Below are positions 1 through 5,051 of a stretch of DNA of 6,580 bases, one piece after another. This DNA comes from an uncultured delta proteobacterium (GTDB lineage: Bacteria > RBG-13-61-14 > DRUE01). The stretch's first letter is position 1. Each line of letters begins with the position of its first letter. Below the pieces are notes generated by a model, which saw only the letters and a program-made list of their open reading frames with translations, was not told where the DNA came from and searched no databases. The stretch covers positions 1 to 6,580 of the forward strand of contig CAIYYW010000388.1 of the NCBI GenBank assembly GCA_903930515.1. The letters are read 5' to 3'. The translations under genes and the position numbers were made by a program.

Positions 1-342
1 GACCTGGCCAAAAATATCGGCGCCGCGCCGATCCTGATGATCCAGGCAAGGTTGGTTTCGCCGGGAAATACCGAGGCGGAAAAAAAGCGGATCCATTACG
101 AGTATCCCCTGCTCAATCATCAGGGCCTGCTCCAGGCCTTTGATGACACCGACCGGATCTTGCGCGAGGTCGCCTCGGAAAAGGGCGCGGTCCTGATTGA
201 AGCGACTTTCGAACTCACCGGCCGGGGAGATTTGTTTGTTGACCAGATCCATCTCAACGACCGGGGATCACAAGAGCTTGCGAAATTGACCGCGCAAGAA
301 CTGGGAAAAATCCTGGGCCGGCAAACGGGAAAAGCCAAATGA
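1..342 (+). CDS. SGNH/GDSL-type hydrolase, C-terminal part (5' end outside window)
   Basis: The reading frame is open from base 1 and ends at TGA 340-342, so 113 residues of the C-terminus are visible. The recognisable part is a D-x-x-H block (FVDQIHLNDRGSQELA, visible residues 79-94). In SGNH/GDSL esterases the last catalytic block supplies the Asp and His of the triad in just this form, followed by a small-residue helix (here RGSQELAKLTAQEL). The preceding strand-helix pattern (AAPILMIQARLVSPGN, then a loop with EYPLLNHQG) fits the end of this alpha/beta fold. The nucleophile Ser, Gly and Asn blocks would lie upstream of the window, so activity and substrate cannot be judged; such enzymes de-esterify lipids, glycans or modified sugars. 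Its stop overlaps the start of the radical SAM gene (ATGA), implying one transcript and coupled translation. The family call rests on one block and is moderate to good. Confidence 0.72.
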   Translation, partial: DLAKNIGAAPILMIQARLVSPGNTEAEKKRIHYEYPLLNHQGLLQAFDDTDRILREVASEKGAVLIEATFELTGRGDLFVDQIHLNDRGSQELAKLTAQELGKILGRQTGKAK

Positions 343-1781
343 CTTTTGGCAAAATCCTTTTGCTCAACACCAACCGGATGCGGCCGCGGATATCTCCGAT
401 CGGATTGGATTATGTCGCCTCCGCTTTGACCGCGGCGGGAGCGGAGTTGAAATTTTTTGACCTGGCCCTGGAGGCGGGGGGCTGGCAGGCCCGGCTGAAA
501 AAATCGCTTGATCAATTTTCTCCCGATTTGATCGGGATCACCCTCCGGAATATTGACGACTGCTATTTTCTTTCCGGGCAATCCTTTCTCGGACCGATCC
601 AATGGCTGACGCGCTGGCTGAAGAAGAATTCCCCCGCCAAAATCGTTCTGGGCGGGGTCGGGTTCTCCATCGCGCCTGGGGCCCTGCTGGAATACCTGGG
701 CGGGGATTACGGAGTGTGGGGAGACGGCGAGCAAGCCGCGTCCGAACTGTTGCGGGTGATCGCCAAAGGCAGGGCGCCAAGTCCCAAAGAAATCCCCGGC
801 CTGGTGATCCCGGGGGCAAAGGATTTCACCCGCGCCGAGATCAATCCCGATCGTTTTTTTCGAAGCCGCAAACTCTCCGACCAATCCCGATACTTCCGGA
901 TGGGAGGCCAGATCGGGATTGAGACCAAACGCGGCTGCGACGGAAGGTGTATTTATTGCGCGGACCCGCTGGCCAAGGGCGGCAAAATCCGCAGGCGCTC
1001 CCCCGAGGCGGTGGCGGACGAAATTGAAGAGTTGTTGAGCCTGGGCGCATGGGCTTTTCATATTTGCGACAGCGAATTCAACCGGCCCTATCAACACGCG
1101 GCTTCGGCGCTCAAGGAAATCGCGCGCAGGGGCCTTAAGAACAAGATCGCGCTTTACGGATATTTCTCGCCCCGTCCCTTTGACCAAGAGTTGGCAAAAC
1201 TTTATCTTGAGGCCGGGGGCAAGGGCATTTGTTTTGGAGCGGATTCCGGCTCCGAGCGGGTCCTGCAAACCCTGAGACGGGACCATTCTCCGGAAGACCT
1301 GGAAAGGGCGGCCGGGGCCTGCCGGAAAGCCGGGATCAAGGTGATGTATGACCTGCTGATCGGAGCGCCGGGAGAGACCAGGAAAACCATCGCCGAAACC
1401 ATCCGGCTGATGAAAAAACTCAAACCCGACCGGGTGGGACTGAGCTACGGCCTCCGGGTGTACGCGCATACCGAACTGCACCGGATGATTGAAGATCAAG
1501 GCGGCGCCCCGGCCGGTCTTTACGCAAGAGGAACCACGATCAATAACCCCGAACTGATCTTCCCTATTTTTTATCTCGCGCCTGAAATAAAAAAAGACGG
1601 GCTGGAATATCTCCATAACCTGATCGGCAAAGACCCGCGCTTCTTCCTTCCAGCAAGGACCCCCCACCAGCAGAACTACAATTATTCCGGCAATTTGTTC
1701 CTGGAAAAATTGATCAAAAAAGGAGCCCGCGGGGCCTTCTGGAAGATCTTGATGGATCCTAAATCTGCAATAGATCTTTGA
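339..1781 (+). CDS. Radical SAM protein with N-terminal cobalamin-binding-type domain
   Basis: This is a complete 480-residue protein. Residues 1-140 look like a B12-binding Rossmann domain: strand KILLLNTN, then ISPIGLDYVASALTAAG, a GGVGFSIAP turn (105-113) and GDGE (128-131), as in BchE-type enzymes. As is usual in that group, there is no DxHxxG motif for the lower cobalamin ligand. The radical SAM core follows, with the CxxxCxxC cluster motif at Cys200, Cys204 and Cys207 (GCDGRCIYC). It also has FHICDSEFN (240-248), GADSGSERVL (300-309, AdoMet-contact strand) and IGAPGET (341-347). The C-terminal 100 residues are family-specific. Members use a 4Fe-4S cluster and AdoMet, often with methylcobalamin, to methylate or rearrange unactivated carbons. 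The substrate cannot be told here. The ATG overlaps the upstream hydrolase stop; GGGA at 327-330 is a modest ribosome site 8 bases before it. Domain assignment is secure; reaction is unknown. Confidence 0.93.
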   Translation: MTFGKILLLNTNRMRPRISPIGLDYVASALTAAGAELKFFDLALEAGGWQARLKKSLDQFSPDLIGITLRNIDDCYFLSGQSFLGPIQWLTRWLKKNSPAKIVLGGVGFSIAPGALLEYLGGDYGVWGDGEQAASELLRVIAKGRAPSPKEIPGLVIPGAKDFTRAEINPDRFFRSRKLSDQSRYFRMGGQIGIETKRGCDGRCIYCADPLAKGGKIRRRSPEAVADEIEELLSLGAWAFHICDSEFNRPYQHAASALKEIARRGLKNKIALYGYFSPRPFDQELAKLYLEAGGKGICFGADSGSERVLQTLRRDHSPEDLERAAGACRKAGIKVMYDLLIGAPGETRKTIAETIRLMKKLKPDRVGLSYGLRVYAHTELHRMIEDQGGAPAGLYARGTTINNPELIFPIFYLAPEIKKDGLEYLHNLIGKDPRFFLPARTPHQQNYNYSGNLFLEKLIKKGARGAFWKILMDPKSAIDL

Positions 1782-1801: not shown

Positions 1802-1820
1802 GTCTAACTCTATGGAAAGG

Positions 1821-1960
1821 GGTATGCGACATATTTGGCGAGATCAATGGATTCTGTCTTGCCCGGGTTCCGCCTCGGGCGGGATTGTCGCGCCCAGAAC
1901 GGGCAGGGCAAGTCCCGACCCGACCATGGGCGCGATTTACCACCAAATATGTCGCAGACC
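1821..1960. repeat. 140-bp element with 18-bp terminal inverted repeats and internal hairpins
   Basis: The left arm GGTATGCGACATATTTGG (1821-1838) and the right arm (1943-1960) are inverted copies matching at 17 of 18 positions. The only mismatch is the fourth base from the outer end, leaving a perfect 14-bp core (1825-1838 / 1943-1956). Inside, TCGCGCCCA (1888-1896) pairs perfectly with TGGGCGCGA (1927-1935), GCCCG (1861-1865) pairs with CGGGC (1876-1880), and CTTGCCC (1858-1864) can instead pair with GGGCAAG (1906-1912). Folded as one strand it gives an outer stem enclosing two hairpins. The interior is GC-rich while the flanks are AT-rich. No open reading frame with gene-like character lies inside. 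It could be a non-autonomous miniature transposable element (MITE-like), a palindromic repeat family member, or a structured RNA or attenuator ahead of the secretion operon. I found no convincing target-site duplication. The repeats are read directly; their nature is inference. Confidence 0.8.
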
Positions 1961-1977
1961 CAAGCAAAGAGTCGGTC

Positions 1978-2006
1978 TTGACAATTTAAGCAATTTACTT
2001 TAAGCT
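1978..2006 (+). promoter_or_regulatory. Candidate sigma70-type promoter for the gspL-gspM-gspN-like operon
   Basis: A perfect -35 box TTGACA lies at 1978-1983. A 17-base spacer leads to TAAGCT at 2001-2006, which matches TATAAT at only three of six positions. The region from 1984 to 2034 is strikingly AT-rich against its surroundings, and the AGGAG ribosome site follows at 2036-2040. The -35 is strong and the -10 weak, which would suit an activated promoter. The promoter starts 17 bases after the right arm of the inverted-repeat element, so the operon can be transcribed without reading through that element. Confidence 0.5.
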
Positions 2007-2021
2007 TGATAAAAATTAAGC
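1986..2021 (+). repeat. Three TTAAGC direct repeats in the operon promoter region
   Basis: TTAAGC occurs at 1986-1991, 2000-2005 and 2016-2021; the first and third extend to TTAAGCAA. The start-to-start distances are 14 and 16 bases. The middle copy overlaps the candidate -10 box and the first lies in the spacer, a position from which a bound protein would block or modulate RNA polymerase. In such AT-rich sequence three 6-mers may be chance, so an operator role is only a suggestion. Confidence 0.35.
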
Positions 2022-2035
2022 AAATAACCAAAATC

Positions 2036-2040
2036 AGGAG
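2036..2040 (+). promoter_or_regulatory. Ribosome binding site that fixes the TTG start of the GspL-like gene
   Basis: AGGAG sits 10 bases before TTG 2051-2053. It is the only good Shine-Dalgarno sequence near the 5' end of this frame. The protein read from this TTG begins directly with the first strand of the PilM-like domain (CVGLVIGPRKLKAVEL), so the non-ATG start is well supported. Confidence 0.75.
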
Positions 2041-2050
2041 CGATTAACTA

Positions 2051-3649
2051 TTGGCACAAAGATGCGTGGGCCTGGTAATCGGGCCTCGGAAATTAAAAGC
2101 GGTTGAGTTGACTTCCCGCTTCGGGGAAGTGAGCCTGAACCGTTATTGGCTGGTAGATCTTCCGGACTATTTCCGCGGGATGATTTTCGGCCAGGCTCCG
2201 GCCCCGGACCAGGGGGTGACCCTTCCGCCCGAGCTTCAGGAGATTCTGGGGGAGGAATCCGAGGTTTCGGTTTCGATCCCCAGCGAGCTTTGTTTTTACC
2301 GCGAGATTGAATTCCCTTTCACGGACCTGAAGAAAATCAACCAGGTGATCCGTCTGGAGGCTGAGGGTTATTTCCCGTTTGAGATGGACGAATATCTTCT
2401 GGATTTCCTTCCCCCGGTGAGCCAGGACCATACCAGCCAGGTGCTCACCTTCGTGCTCCCGCGATCCCAGTTTTCCCAGGCCCTGACCTCCCTTAACGCC
2501 CTCGGCATTGACCCGGCTTTCAGCGGGATTGAGGGGCTGACCCTTCCGCTCCTTTCCATCAATCAACCCGAGCAGACCCGGCTCTGGCTGGAAATCGGGA
2601 CCGAGCGCAGCATCCTGGTGGGCTCATTGGGAACCGTCCCCCTGCTCTACCGGCGCCTCCCGTTGGGGTTGGGCGCGCTGCTTTCGAAATTAAGCCGGGA
2701 GTCGGGCGGAGACCGCGTCCGGGCCGAGCAAATGATCGCTCAGATAGATTTGTCCCAGCCCCCGGCGGAAGGCGATTCCACGGGGACCCGGATCATCTCG
2801 GATTGGGCGGATTCCCTTTTAGCCAAGGTCAATGAAACCCTGCACTGGTTCGAGCGTAACCGCAAGGAAGAGACCCCGGCGTCTAAGTTTAAGGAGTTGG
2901 TCCTGACCGGGAACGGCGCGCTGATCAAGGGATTGGATGTTTTCTTCGAGCAAGAGCTGACGATTCCGAGCCGTAAATTTCAAATGCCGGATTGGATCAA
3001 GCAGGAAACGGCCTTGGATCAGAACCAGGCCTTGATTCTCTCCGAGCCGTTGAGCCTGGCCCTGGCCCGGGTCCGGCGGGAAGGGAAAAAGCTGGTCAAT
3101 TTCCGCAAGGGAGAGTTCGCCTGGAAAATGGAGTTCCAGATTCCATATCGCCGGATGGTCTTTCCGGCCATCCTGCTGGTCCTGCTCCTGGCGATGGGAG
3201 CCGCCAAGGGATACGGCCAATACCGCCTGAATAAAACCAGGAACGACCAGATCAAGAATGAAATGATCGCGGAATATCAGAAGTTGTTCCCCGGATCGGT
3301 CCCCACCGACCCGGTCCGGCAATTGACCCAGTCCCTGACCGTGTCCAAGTCCAAGATTGAAGTGTATCGGGACCTGCTATATCCCACGGCGGTGGACACC
3401 CTTTCCGCGATCGCGGATCAGCTCCCGGAAGGAAGTTACTTTATCCTGAGCCGGTACAGCTATACCGGAAACAAGGTGCGGCTGGAGGGAGAGAGCGCTG
3501 ATTTCGCCGGCGCCAAGGGAATTGTGGACCTTCTGGGCAAGGTGGAATTTTTCCAAAAGGCGATCCTGGAAGACTCGCGCGCCAACCCCAAGGGCAAGGT
3601 CAATTTCGCCATCCAGATTGAACTGAAAAGCCCGGGGGAGAAACTATGA
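2051..3649 (+). CDS. gspL: GspL-like type II secretion protein (PilM-like domain + TM + periplasmic domain)
   Basis: This 532-residue protein starts at TTG. Residues 5-350 form a PilM/GspL actin-like domain. It has the N-terminal strand pair (CVGLVIGPRKLKAVEL), the family hallmark EIEFPFTDLKKINQVIRLEAEGYFPF split over 85-110, and EYLLDF (114-119). A second nucleotide-pocket strand, LWLEIGTERSILVG, lies at 178-191 and LVLTGNGALIKGLDVFFEQEL at 283-303. A basic VNFRKGEF linker (349-356) leads to one membrane helix near 369-388 (MVFPAILLVLLLAMGAAKGY). The periplasmic part (390-532) ends in a ferredoxin-like fold typical of GspL or PilN (LSAIADQLPEGSYFILSRYSY). GspL couples the cytoplasmic ATPase GspE to the periplasmic partner GspM. 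The layout also equals a PilM-PilN fusion, so a type IV pilus-like role is the alternative. The next two genes overlap or abut it and favour the type II secretion reading. Confidence 0.85.
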   Translation: MAQRCVGLVIGPRKLKAVELTSRFGEVSLNRYWLVDLPDYFRGMIFGQAPAPDQGVTLPPELQEILGEESEVSVSIPSELCFYREIEFPFTDLKKINQVIRLEAEGYFPFEMDEYLLDFLPPVSQDHTSQVLTFVLPRSQFSQALTSLNALGIDPAFSGIEGLTLPLLSINQPEQTRLWLEIGTERSILVGSLGTVPLLYRRLPLGLGALLSKLSRESGGDRVRAEQMIAQIDLSQPPAEGDSTGTRIISDWADSLLAKVNETLHWFERNRKEETPASKFKELVLTGNGALIKGLDVFFEQELTIPSRKFQMPDWIKQETALDQNQALILSEPLSLALARVRREGKKLVNFRKGEFAWKMEFQIPYRRMVFPAILLVLLLAMGAAKGYGQYRLNKTRNDQIKNEMIAEYQKLFPGSVPTDPVRQLTQSLTVSKSKIEVYRDLLYPTAVDTLSAIADQLPEGSYFILSRYSYTGNKVRLEGESADFAGAKGIVDLLGKVEFFQKAILEDSRANPKGKVNFAIQIELKSPGEKL

Positions 3650-4215
3650 CCGAGAACAGTAATCCCCTGGAATCCGTCATCGGGTATTTCACCCGGCTCA
3701 AATCCCGCGAGCGGTGGATCGTTCTGGTCGGAGCCGGGGTCGCGCTCTTCTTCGTCATCTTCTTCTCCCTGTTTTTATCCCACCGAGGTCCCCAGGGAAA
3801 GGCGACCAAGACCGAACAGATTGCCGAACAGCGCGGCGAGTTCTTCCAGGCCGCCCAGGAATACGCCAAGCTCAAGCAGGTGGTGGACCTGGTGGACTCC
3901 CGGGTGGCTCAGCGGCCCCCTGATTTCGACCTCTATAGCAAAATCAATGAACTGGTCGCGGCCGGAGCCCTTCAGCAGTTCGTGGTGAAAATGGACCCCG
4001 GGGCCGTGGAAGGCAAGGAATTTCTGGACGAGGAATATGTGGATTTGAATGTGCAAAAAATCGAGTTGCGCGTTTTGGTCAATTTCCTCAAGCAACTGGA
4101 GCAACTCCCCGGATTCGTCCGGATCAGCCAGATGTCCATCAAAACCAGGCTGGACAATTCCAAGACCCTGGATGTGGTGTTGAGAATTTCCGCCTATAAG
4201 GAAAAAGCAAAATAA
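3646..4215 (+). CDS. gspM: GspM/PilO-like inner-membrane assembly protein
   Basis: This is a 189-residue bitopic protein. It has a short cytoplasmic N-terminus rich in charge (residues 1-23), one membrane helix at about 24-45 (WIVLVGAGVALFFVIFFSLFL) and a polar stretch likely to form a coiled coil (52-90). The periplasmic domain has the GspM/PilO pattern of two related strand-helix units, ending in VQKIELRVLVNFLKQLEQLPGFVRISQMSIKTR (split over 136-168) and a final strand LDVVLRISAY (175-184). GspM and PilO dimerise through this domain and pair with GspL or PilN across the periplasm. The start ATG 3646-3648 overlaps the upstream TGA (ATGA), with GGGGGAG at 3634-3640 five bases before it. The length suits the family. 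Sequence conservation is low, so the assignment leans on topology, the C-terminal pattern and its place between the GspL-like and GspN-like genes. Confidence 0.8.
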   Translation: MTENSNPLESVIGYFTRLKSRERWIVLVGAGVALFFVIFFSLFLSHRGPQGKATKTEQIAEQRGEFFQAAQEYAKLKQVVDLVDSRVAQRPPDFDLYSKINELVAAGALQQFVVKMDPGAVEGKEFLDEEYVDLNVQKIELRVLVNFLKQLEQLPGFVRISQMSIKTRLDNSKTLDVVLRISAYKEKAK

Positions 4216-5051
4216 TGAAAGGTAAAATCCTGCTCATCTCCGGTTACACCGCGTTTTTTATTCCCGCTTTCCTCTGCTCGCTCTACCTCACCTTCAACCC
4301 GGTCCCGATCAAGGCCTGGCTGGAAAATCAAGCCCGGCAAAAAGGATATAACCTCACCATCTCCAACCTGGATAAATACCGCCTGAGCGGGATCCAGGCC
4401 AAGGAAATCACCTGGCAAAACGCCCAGGGAAGGACGATCAAGATTGACCAGATCAAGGCCCGGCTCTCCCTCCTCCCCCTGCTCCTGGGCAGGAAACAGA
4501 TTGGATTCCAAATGAAAATCTCTGGCGGGAAAGTGTCCGGAAAGGTGGAGCAGGCAAAACGCGGTTTTCAAACCGAATTCGATCTCCAGGAGGTCAACCT
4601 GGCAAATATGCAGGCCGGCCCCCAAGGCGGTTTCTGGGTCGCGGCCAAGCTTTCCGGCAAAGGCAACCTCAACCTCACCCCGCGCGAAAACCCCAAGGCC
4701 TGGACCGGAAAAATTGAGGGCCAACTCAGCCCCGGGACCATTCCCAGCTTTGCCTATCAGGGGTTCCAGGTGCCTGAAATCAAAATAGAACAGGGCCAGT
4801 TCAACCTGGAATTGAACAACGGAAGCGCCCAGATCAAAACCTTTGAACTCAAAAGCCCGGACTTTCCCTTCTCGGGAACCGGCCAGGTCGAATTACGCAA
4901 CCCCATCGCCAGCAGCCTGCTCAAGCTGGAAGCCAAAATCAAGCCCAGTCAGGCCTTCCTGGAACAAATCAAAATGCTGGAATCCATCATCCCCCCCAAC
5001 CATACCATCACTTACAATGGCACCCTGGGAGGAATAGTTTCTGGACACTGA
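4215..5051 (+). CDS. gspN: GspN-like type II secretion protein (AsmA-like periplasmic domain)
   Basis: This 278-residue protein has an N-terminal signal anchor (residues 4-27, ILLISGYTAFFIPAFLCSLY). A first periplasmic unit follows (PIKAWLENQARQKGYNLTI, then NLDKYRLSGIQAKEITWQ, residues 31-68), then a series of amphipathic beta strands with Gly turns (96-275). That order matches the GspN family found beside gspL and gspM in Myxococcota, Desulfobacterota and Leptospira, whose N-terminus resembles AsmA-type beta-groove lipid-transfer folds. GspN is thought to assist the inner-membrane platform, but its exact role is unsettled. The start overlaps the upstream TAA by one base (TAATG), with AAGGA at 4198-4202 twelve bases before. 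The C-terminus ends in a strand (ITYNGTLGGIV) followed by a short SGH tail. This could be a natural end or a slightly clipped one; family members are often somewhat longer. Confidence 0.75.
   Translation: MKGKILLISGYTAFFIPAFLCSLYLTFNPVPIKAWLENQARQKGYNLTISNLDKYRLSGIQAKEITWQNAQGRTIKIDQIKARLSLLPLLLGRKQIGFQMKISGGKVSGKVEQAKRGFQTEFDLQEVNLANMQAGPQGGFWVAAKLSGKGNLNLTPRENPKAWTGKIEGQLSPGTIPSFAYQGFQVPEIKIEQGQFNLELNNGSAQIKTFELKSPDFPFSGTGQVELRNPIASSLLKLEAKIKPSQAFLEQIKMLESIIPPNHTITYNGTLGGIVSGH

Follow-up and report, generated by a model that had tools for sequence, protein, structure and literature searches.

The block of inverted repeats analysed here lies in a 6,580-nucleotide stretch of DNA (the window) and is very probably an old miniature inverted-repeat transposable element (MITE), mobilised in trans by a promoter-targeting transposase of the Mutator superfamily, most likely of the ISKra4 group. 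It is a known kind of object with an unusual, quantifiable address. A mobile miniature element was among the options of the earlier note on this DNA, and it is borne out by dispersed copies at unrelated loci, by 9-bp duplications, by the absence of the element from the orthologous site of a congener and by the fixed insertion address. The genomes considered are that of the window (G000), that of the congener (G001) and that of Deltaproteobacteria bacterium RBG_13_61_14 (G002), which belongs to the same order. The features of the window are listed in table 1.

The terminal repeats of the element are 19 nt long and complementary at 18 of 19 positions (95%), with arms 104 nt apart. The 18-nt repeat with 17 matches given in the earlier note is real, being the same repeat less one pair; the 104-bp interior and the perfect 9-bp internal repeat (1888–1896/1927–1935) that it described are also present. 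No other inverted repeat in the window that spans up to 240 nt matches at 18 or more of 19 positions, and when the window was resampled six times under a first-order Markov model, no repeat scored above 15/19.

Table 1. Features of the element and its neighbours in the window.
Feature	Position	Strand	Remarks
Upstream B12-binding radical SAM gene	339..1781	+	Pfam
Possible degraded target duplication, left copy ATGGAAAG	1812..1819	.	6/8 identical to right copy
MITE copy, GGG...CCC	1820..1961	.	142 bp; ends set by family alignment and duplications of related copies
Left terminal inverted repeat GGGTATGCGACATATTTGG	1820..1838	+	end type A
GC-rich core hairpin	1856..1885	.	common to other repeats of the window's genome
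Internal hairpin with 9-bp stem	1888..1935	.	
Right terminal inverted repeat, inward reading GGGTCTGCGACATATTTGG	1943..1961	-	end type B
Possible degraded target duplication, right copy AAGCAAAG	1962..1969	.	
Predicted -35 box TTGACA	1978..1983	+	16 bp from element; sequence, junction scan, kept in congener G001
Predicted -10 box TAAGCT	2001..2006	+	TAAAAT in congener
GspL/PilM-PilN-like gene, first of the operon	2051..3649	+	Pfam PilN, PilM_2; NCBIfam GspL below cut-off
GspM-like gene	3646..4215	+	Pfam T2SSM, below curated cut-off
GspN gene	4215..5051	+	NCBIfam TIGR04411, 133 bits

The genome-wide search for copies that the earlier note had named as a check found diverged relatives at unrelated loci. 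Besides the window copy, G000 holds four two-ended elements (C323:4493-4599, C344:3995-4104, C350:1683-1822 and C58:14048-14201) and about nine single ends, all of them at unrelated loci. Allowing up to three mismatches, there are 24 end matches in this genome, against three for the reversed control pattern. The relatives in this genome are 107–154 bp long. In the other copies of the family the terminal repeats match at 13 to 19 of 19 positions; end type A continues GGCGAgATCtATGGATTCTGTCTTGG and end type B continues GGTGATAAATTac. Many copies are truncated, and all match the window copy only partially, with 74–95% identity, so that the family must be old in G000. RBG_13_61_14 contains 23 end matches against one for the control; its copies have GGGTGTGCGACA ends and different interiors, and are younger, two of them with perfect 9-bp duplications. 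The congener G001 has weak end matches only. The long exact pattern had no match in the genome collection. The exact end pattern was found seven times in RBG_13_61_14, as well as in four unrelated genomes, which is about chance level, and in one viral contig, and a plasmid search with the family consensus gave no match.

Bacterial MITEs, for example MITEAba12 of Acinetobacter, are short and non-coding, with inverted ends, target duplications and dispersed copies. The present family is alike: its members are short, have no transposase gene, carry terminal inverted repeats, are flanked by target duplications and occur in multiple dispersed copies. It is unlike bacterial MITEs in general in its fixed distance upstream of promoters. 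A plain genome-wide palindromic repeat of the REP type, without transposon ends, had been another option of the earlier note. The GC-rich core does recur at loci without such ends, but the defined GGG...CCC ends and the 9-bp duplications of related copies contradict this reading, which we regard as extremely improbable.

The core, CGCCTCGGGCGGGAC, also belongs to a longer repeat of a second kind that is not bounded by MITE ends at both sides (L008, L009 and L043, plus core-only matches). It may be that this repeat sits nested within the MITE.

Target-site duplications were recognised by comparing the flanks of two-ended elements. In five of the ten the flanks are identical at seven or more of nine positions, against none of 90 swapped pairs. 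The 9-bp duplications are perfect in two elements (TTGGGAGAG/TTGGGAGAG and TGTTAGTTT/TGTTAGTTT) and imperfect, at the same level of at least 7/9, in three (GCAGTAATC/GCAGAAATC, TCCCGAGAT/TCCCGCGAT and GGCAATAAT/GGCAACAAG). The flanks of the window copy are identical at three of nine positions, or at six of eight if the duplication was 8 bp long (chance of at least 6/8, 0.004); its own degraded duplication is only suggestive.

The position of the family relative to promoters was analysed with 41 element/host junctions picked by the terminal repeat alone, the flanks of which were scored for outward sigma70-like promoters with an E. coli-like model, which may not be that of the host phylum. In 13 of the 41 junctions the -35 hexamer starts exactly 16 bases outside the element, and every other offset is represented by at most five junctions (binomial p about 2e-12). 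The peak holds across all thresholds tried (6 to 13 junctions, p 5e-10 to 8e-13) and was reached by none of 20,000 circular shifts. False positives are possible among the listed ends; their effect would be to dilute the peak and not to create it. The family inserts in both orientations relative to promoters, and its address is a fairly harmless one, as it avoids coding sequence and lies above the core promoter. In the window, the copy is followed by 16 bases (1962–1977), TTGACA, 17 bases, TAAGCT and the GspL/GspM/GspN operon.

Several G000 copies have a promoter 3–10 bp from the element and not 16 bp. In the single-ended copies at C346, C296, C243, C343 and C361 the promoter lies 7–8 bp from the end, about nine below the main peak. 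The explanation of this offset as 16 bp minus a lost 9-bp duplication is unsupported, as copies with recognisable duplications also occur at offsets 4 and 9.

In the congener G001, the radical SAM gene and a gspL-like gene share a contig (window positions 1–1748 and 1975–4101 are matched by BLAST). The element is absent from the gap between them and TTGACA-17-TAAAAT is kept there; the promoter thus exists independently of the element. The gap is not a clean empty target, since it contains a nucleotidyltransferase-like frame and an apparent HEPN partner. These frames, upstream of the gspL-like gene (G001:C379), read as an MntA-HepT-like pair (nucleotidyltransferase-like plus HEPN/DUF86).

These comparisons bear on the question of whether the element serves its host. 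One proposal is that the MITEs were fixed near promoters since they alter transcription of the downstream gene. Copies do persist at a fixed distance above the -35 boxes of many genes, but an insertion preference suffices to explain this, the copies are diverged and often truncated, and the operon of G001 retains its promoter without the element; we find this proposal quite improbable. The more general idea that the MITEs are portable upstream modules, with one shared sequence in place of many genes' own upstream promoter regions, is only slightly less doubtful; if it were true, transcription of those genes might be tuned or coordinated in this little-studied lineage. We infer that the element does nothing for the operon that follows it.

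The option to which the earlier note leaned was a regulatory structured RNA, or riboswitch, that would act on the secretion operon by switching between two alternative folds. The element does sit ahead of the operon and its predicted fold is very stable, with folding-energy z-scores against shuffles of -8.8 as RNA (-7.2 as DNA). The competing 7-bp pairing on which the switch would depend (1858–1864 with 1906–1912) is indeed present as complementarity in the letters, but not as a populated fold: its predicted base-pair probability is 0.0, and that of the 9-bp stem at least 0.97, whether the full element or just its interior is folded. RNAalifold on five copies gave an unfavourable covariation term (+3.8 kcal/mol), and the pairs retained are mostly those imposed by the inverted ends. 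Rfam returned no match. The copies precede unrelated genes, in both orientations, and the element is missing ahead of the operon in G001. In the window the element precedes the operon promoter, and a transcript started there would therefore exclude it. A switching RNA is therefore very improbable.

A few Mutator-type insertion sequences and conjugative elements are already known to transpose to promoter addresses. In TnGBS/ISLre2 and in part of the ISKra4 group the -35 box is about 16 bp from the insertion, Mutator-type elements make 8–9 bp duplications, and orientation preference is lost where the two repeats of an element are near-identical (Guerillot et al., PMC3942029). Taken together, the GGG ends, 9-bp duplications and 16-bp offset of the present family are what has been published as characteristic of Mutator-type transposases that target promoters. 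Insertion sequences of the ISKra4 group (Mutator superfamily, p-MULT 4; ISKra4, ISCasp3) resemble it in their GGG ends, 9-bp duplications and near-symmetric repeats and, for part of the group, in insertion in either orientation (PMC3942029). They differ from it in carrying a transposase gene, in their size (more than 1 kb, against 107–154 bp) and, for the ISKra4 copies read, in end sequence. TnGBS/ISLre2 (p-MULT 3) share the 16-bp offset and have duplications of 8–9 bp; unlike the present family, they insert mostly in one orientation, carry genes and are almost exclusively found in Firmicutes.

We infer both mobilisation by the ISKra4 group and the contact that sets the address. A transposase, most likely of this group, would recognise the near-symmetric GGGTNTGCGACATA ends in trans, cut the target with a 9-bp stagger about 7 bp above a -35 box and insert the element there; once the 9 bp had been duplicated, 16 bp would separate this box from the element. 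The near-identity of the two ends would allow landing in either orientation.

An element of 107–154 bp with a promoter address would be a small, tractable substrate for studying promoter recognition by a transposase, and the family contributes to the turnover of upstream regions in the uncultured genomes around RBG_13_61_14. A literature search on ISKra4 and MITEs, covering papers available without subscription, gave no description of miniature elements with such an address.

Candidate transposases were sought in the same genomes. The congener G001 has an ISKra4 transposase gene (264 bits, cut-off 205), and in G000 a 50-position remnant of such a gene survives, with the same kind of end as that of G001. 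The right end is GGGTCTGCGTCATAAAAGT in the G001 element and GGGTCTGCGACATATTTGG in the window copy; the two are similar but not identical, the inner end bases being different. The only match to PF06782 (ISLre2-type) is the ISKra4 gene of G001, and no ISLre2 gene was found. A search of viral contigs with the G001 ISKra4 transposase gave no relative. Five ISKra4-type elements of plasmids start with GGG, with 9-bp duplications in four and an 8-bp duplication in one; neither in the flanks of the plasmid ISKra4 copies nor in those of the G001 element is a promoter at 16 bp clearly seen. In the assembled contigs no autonomous element carries exactly the ends of the family, and the contigs of RBG_13_61_14 break inside such ends.

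A MITE of another transposase family, associated with promoters through selection against insertions elsewhere, would be compatible with the lack of a mobilising transposase in the assembled contigs and with the different inner end bases of the G001 copy and the lack of a clear promoter 16 bp from it. Under selection for intergenic sites, however, the offsets should be spread broadly instead of peaking at the single base 16 bp away, and the GGG ends, the 9-bp duplications and the 16-bp offset fit the published group. We consider this alternative unlikely, and the assignment of the family to the ISKra4 group is supported, rather than demonstrated, by these sequence comparisons.

Both edges of a 147-kb contig of RBG_13_61_14 (C125) lie inside identical element ends (GGTGATGCCTTTTTTG), and its 29-base end matches only these two edges. 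This suggests a multi-copy, unassembled and perhaps autonomous element. An IS110-type element found beside the ends in RBG_13_61_14 was rejected as the autonomous partner: it seems to be inserted within MITE copies, and an intact copy of it (C40) is without such ends. The apparent insertion of this element within MITE copies breaks the RBG_13_61_14 assembly (contig ends C32, C84 and C5; C40:22397).
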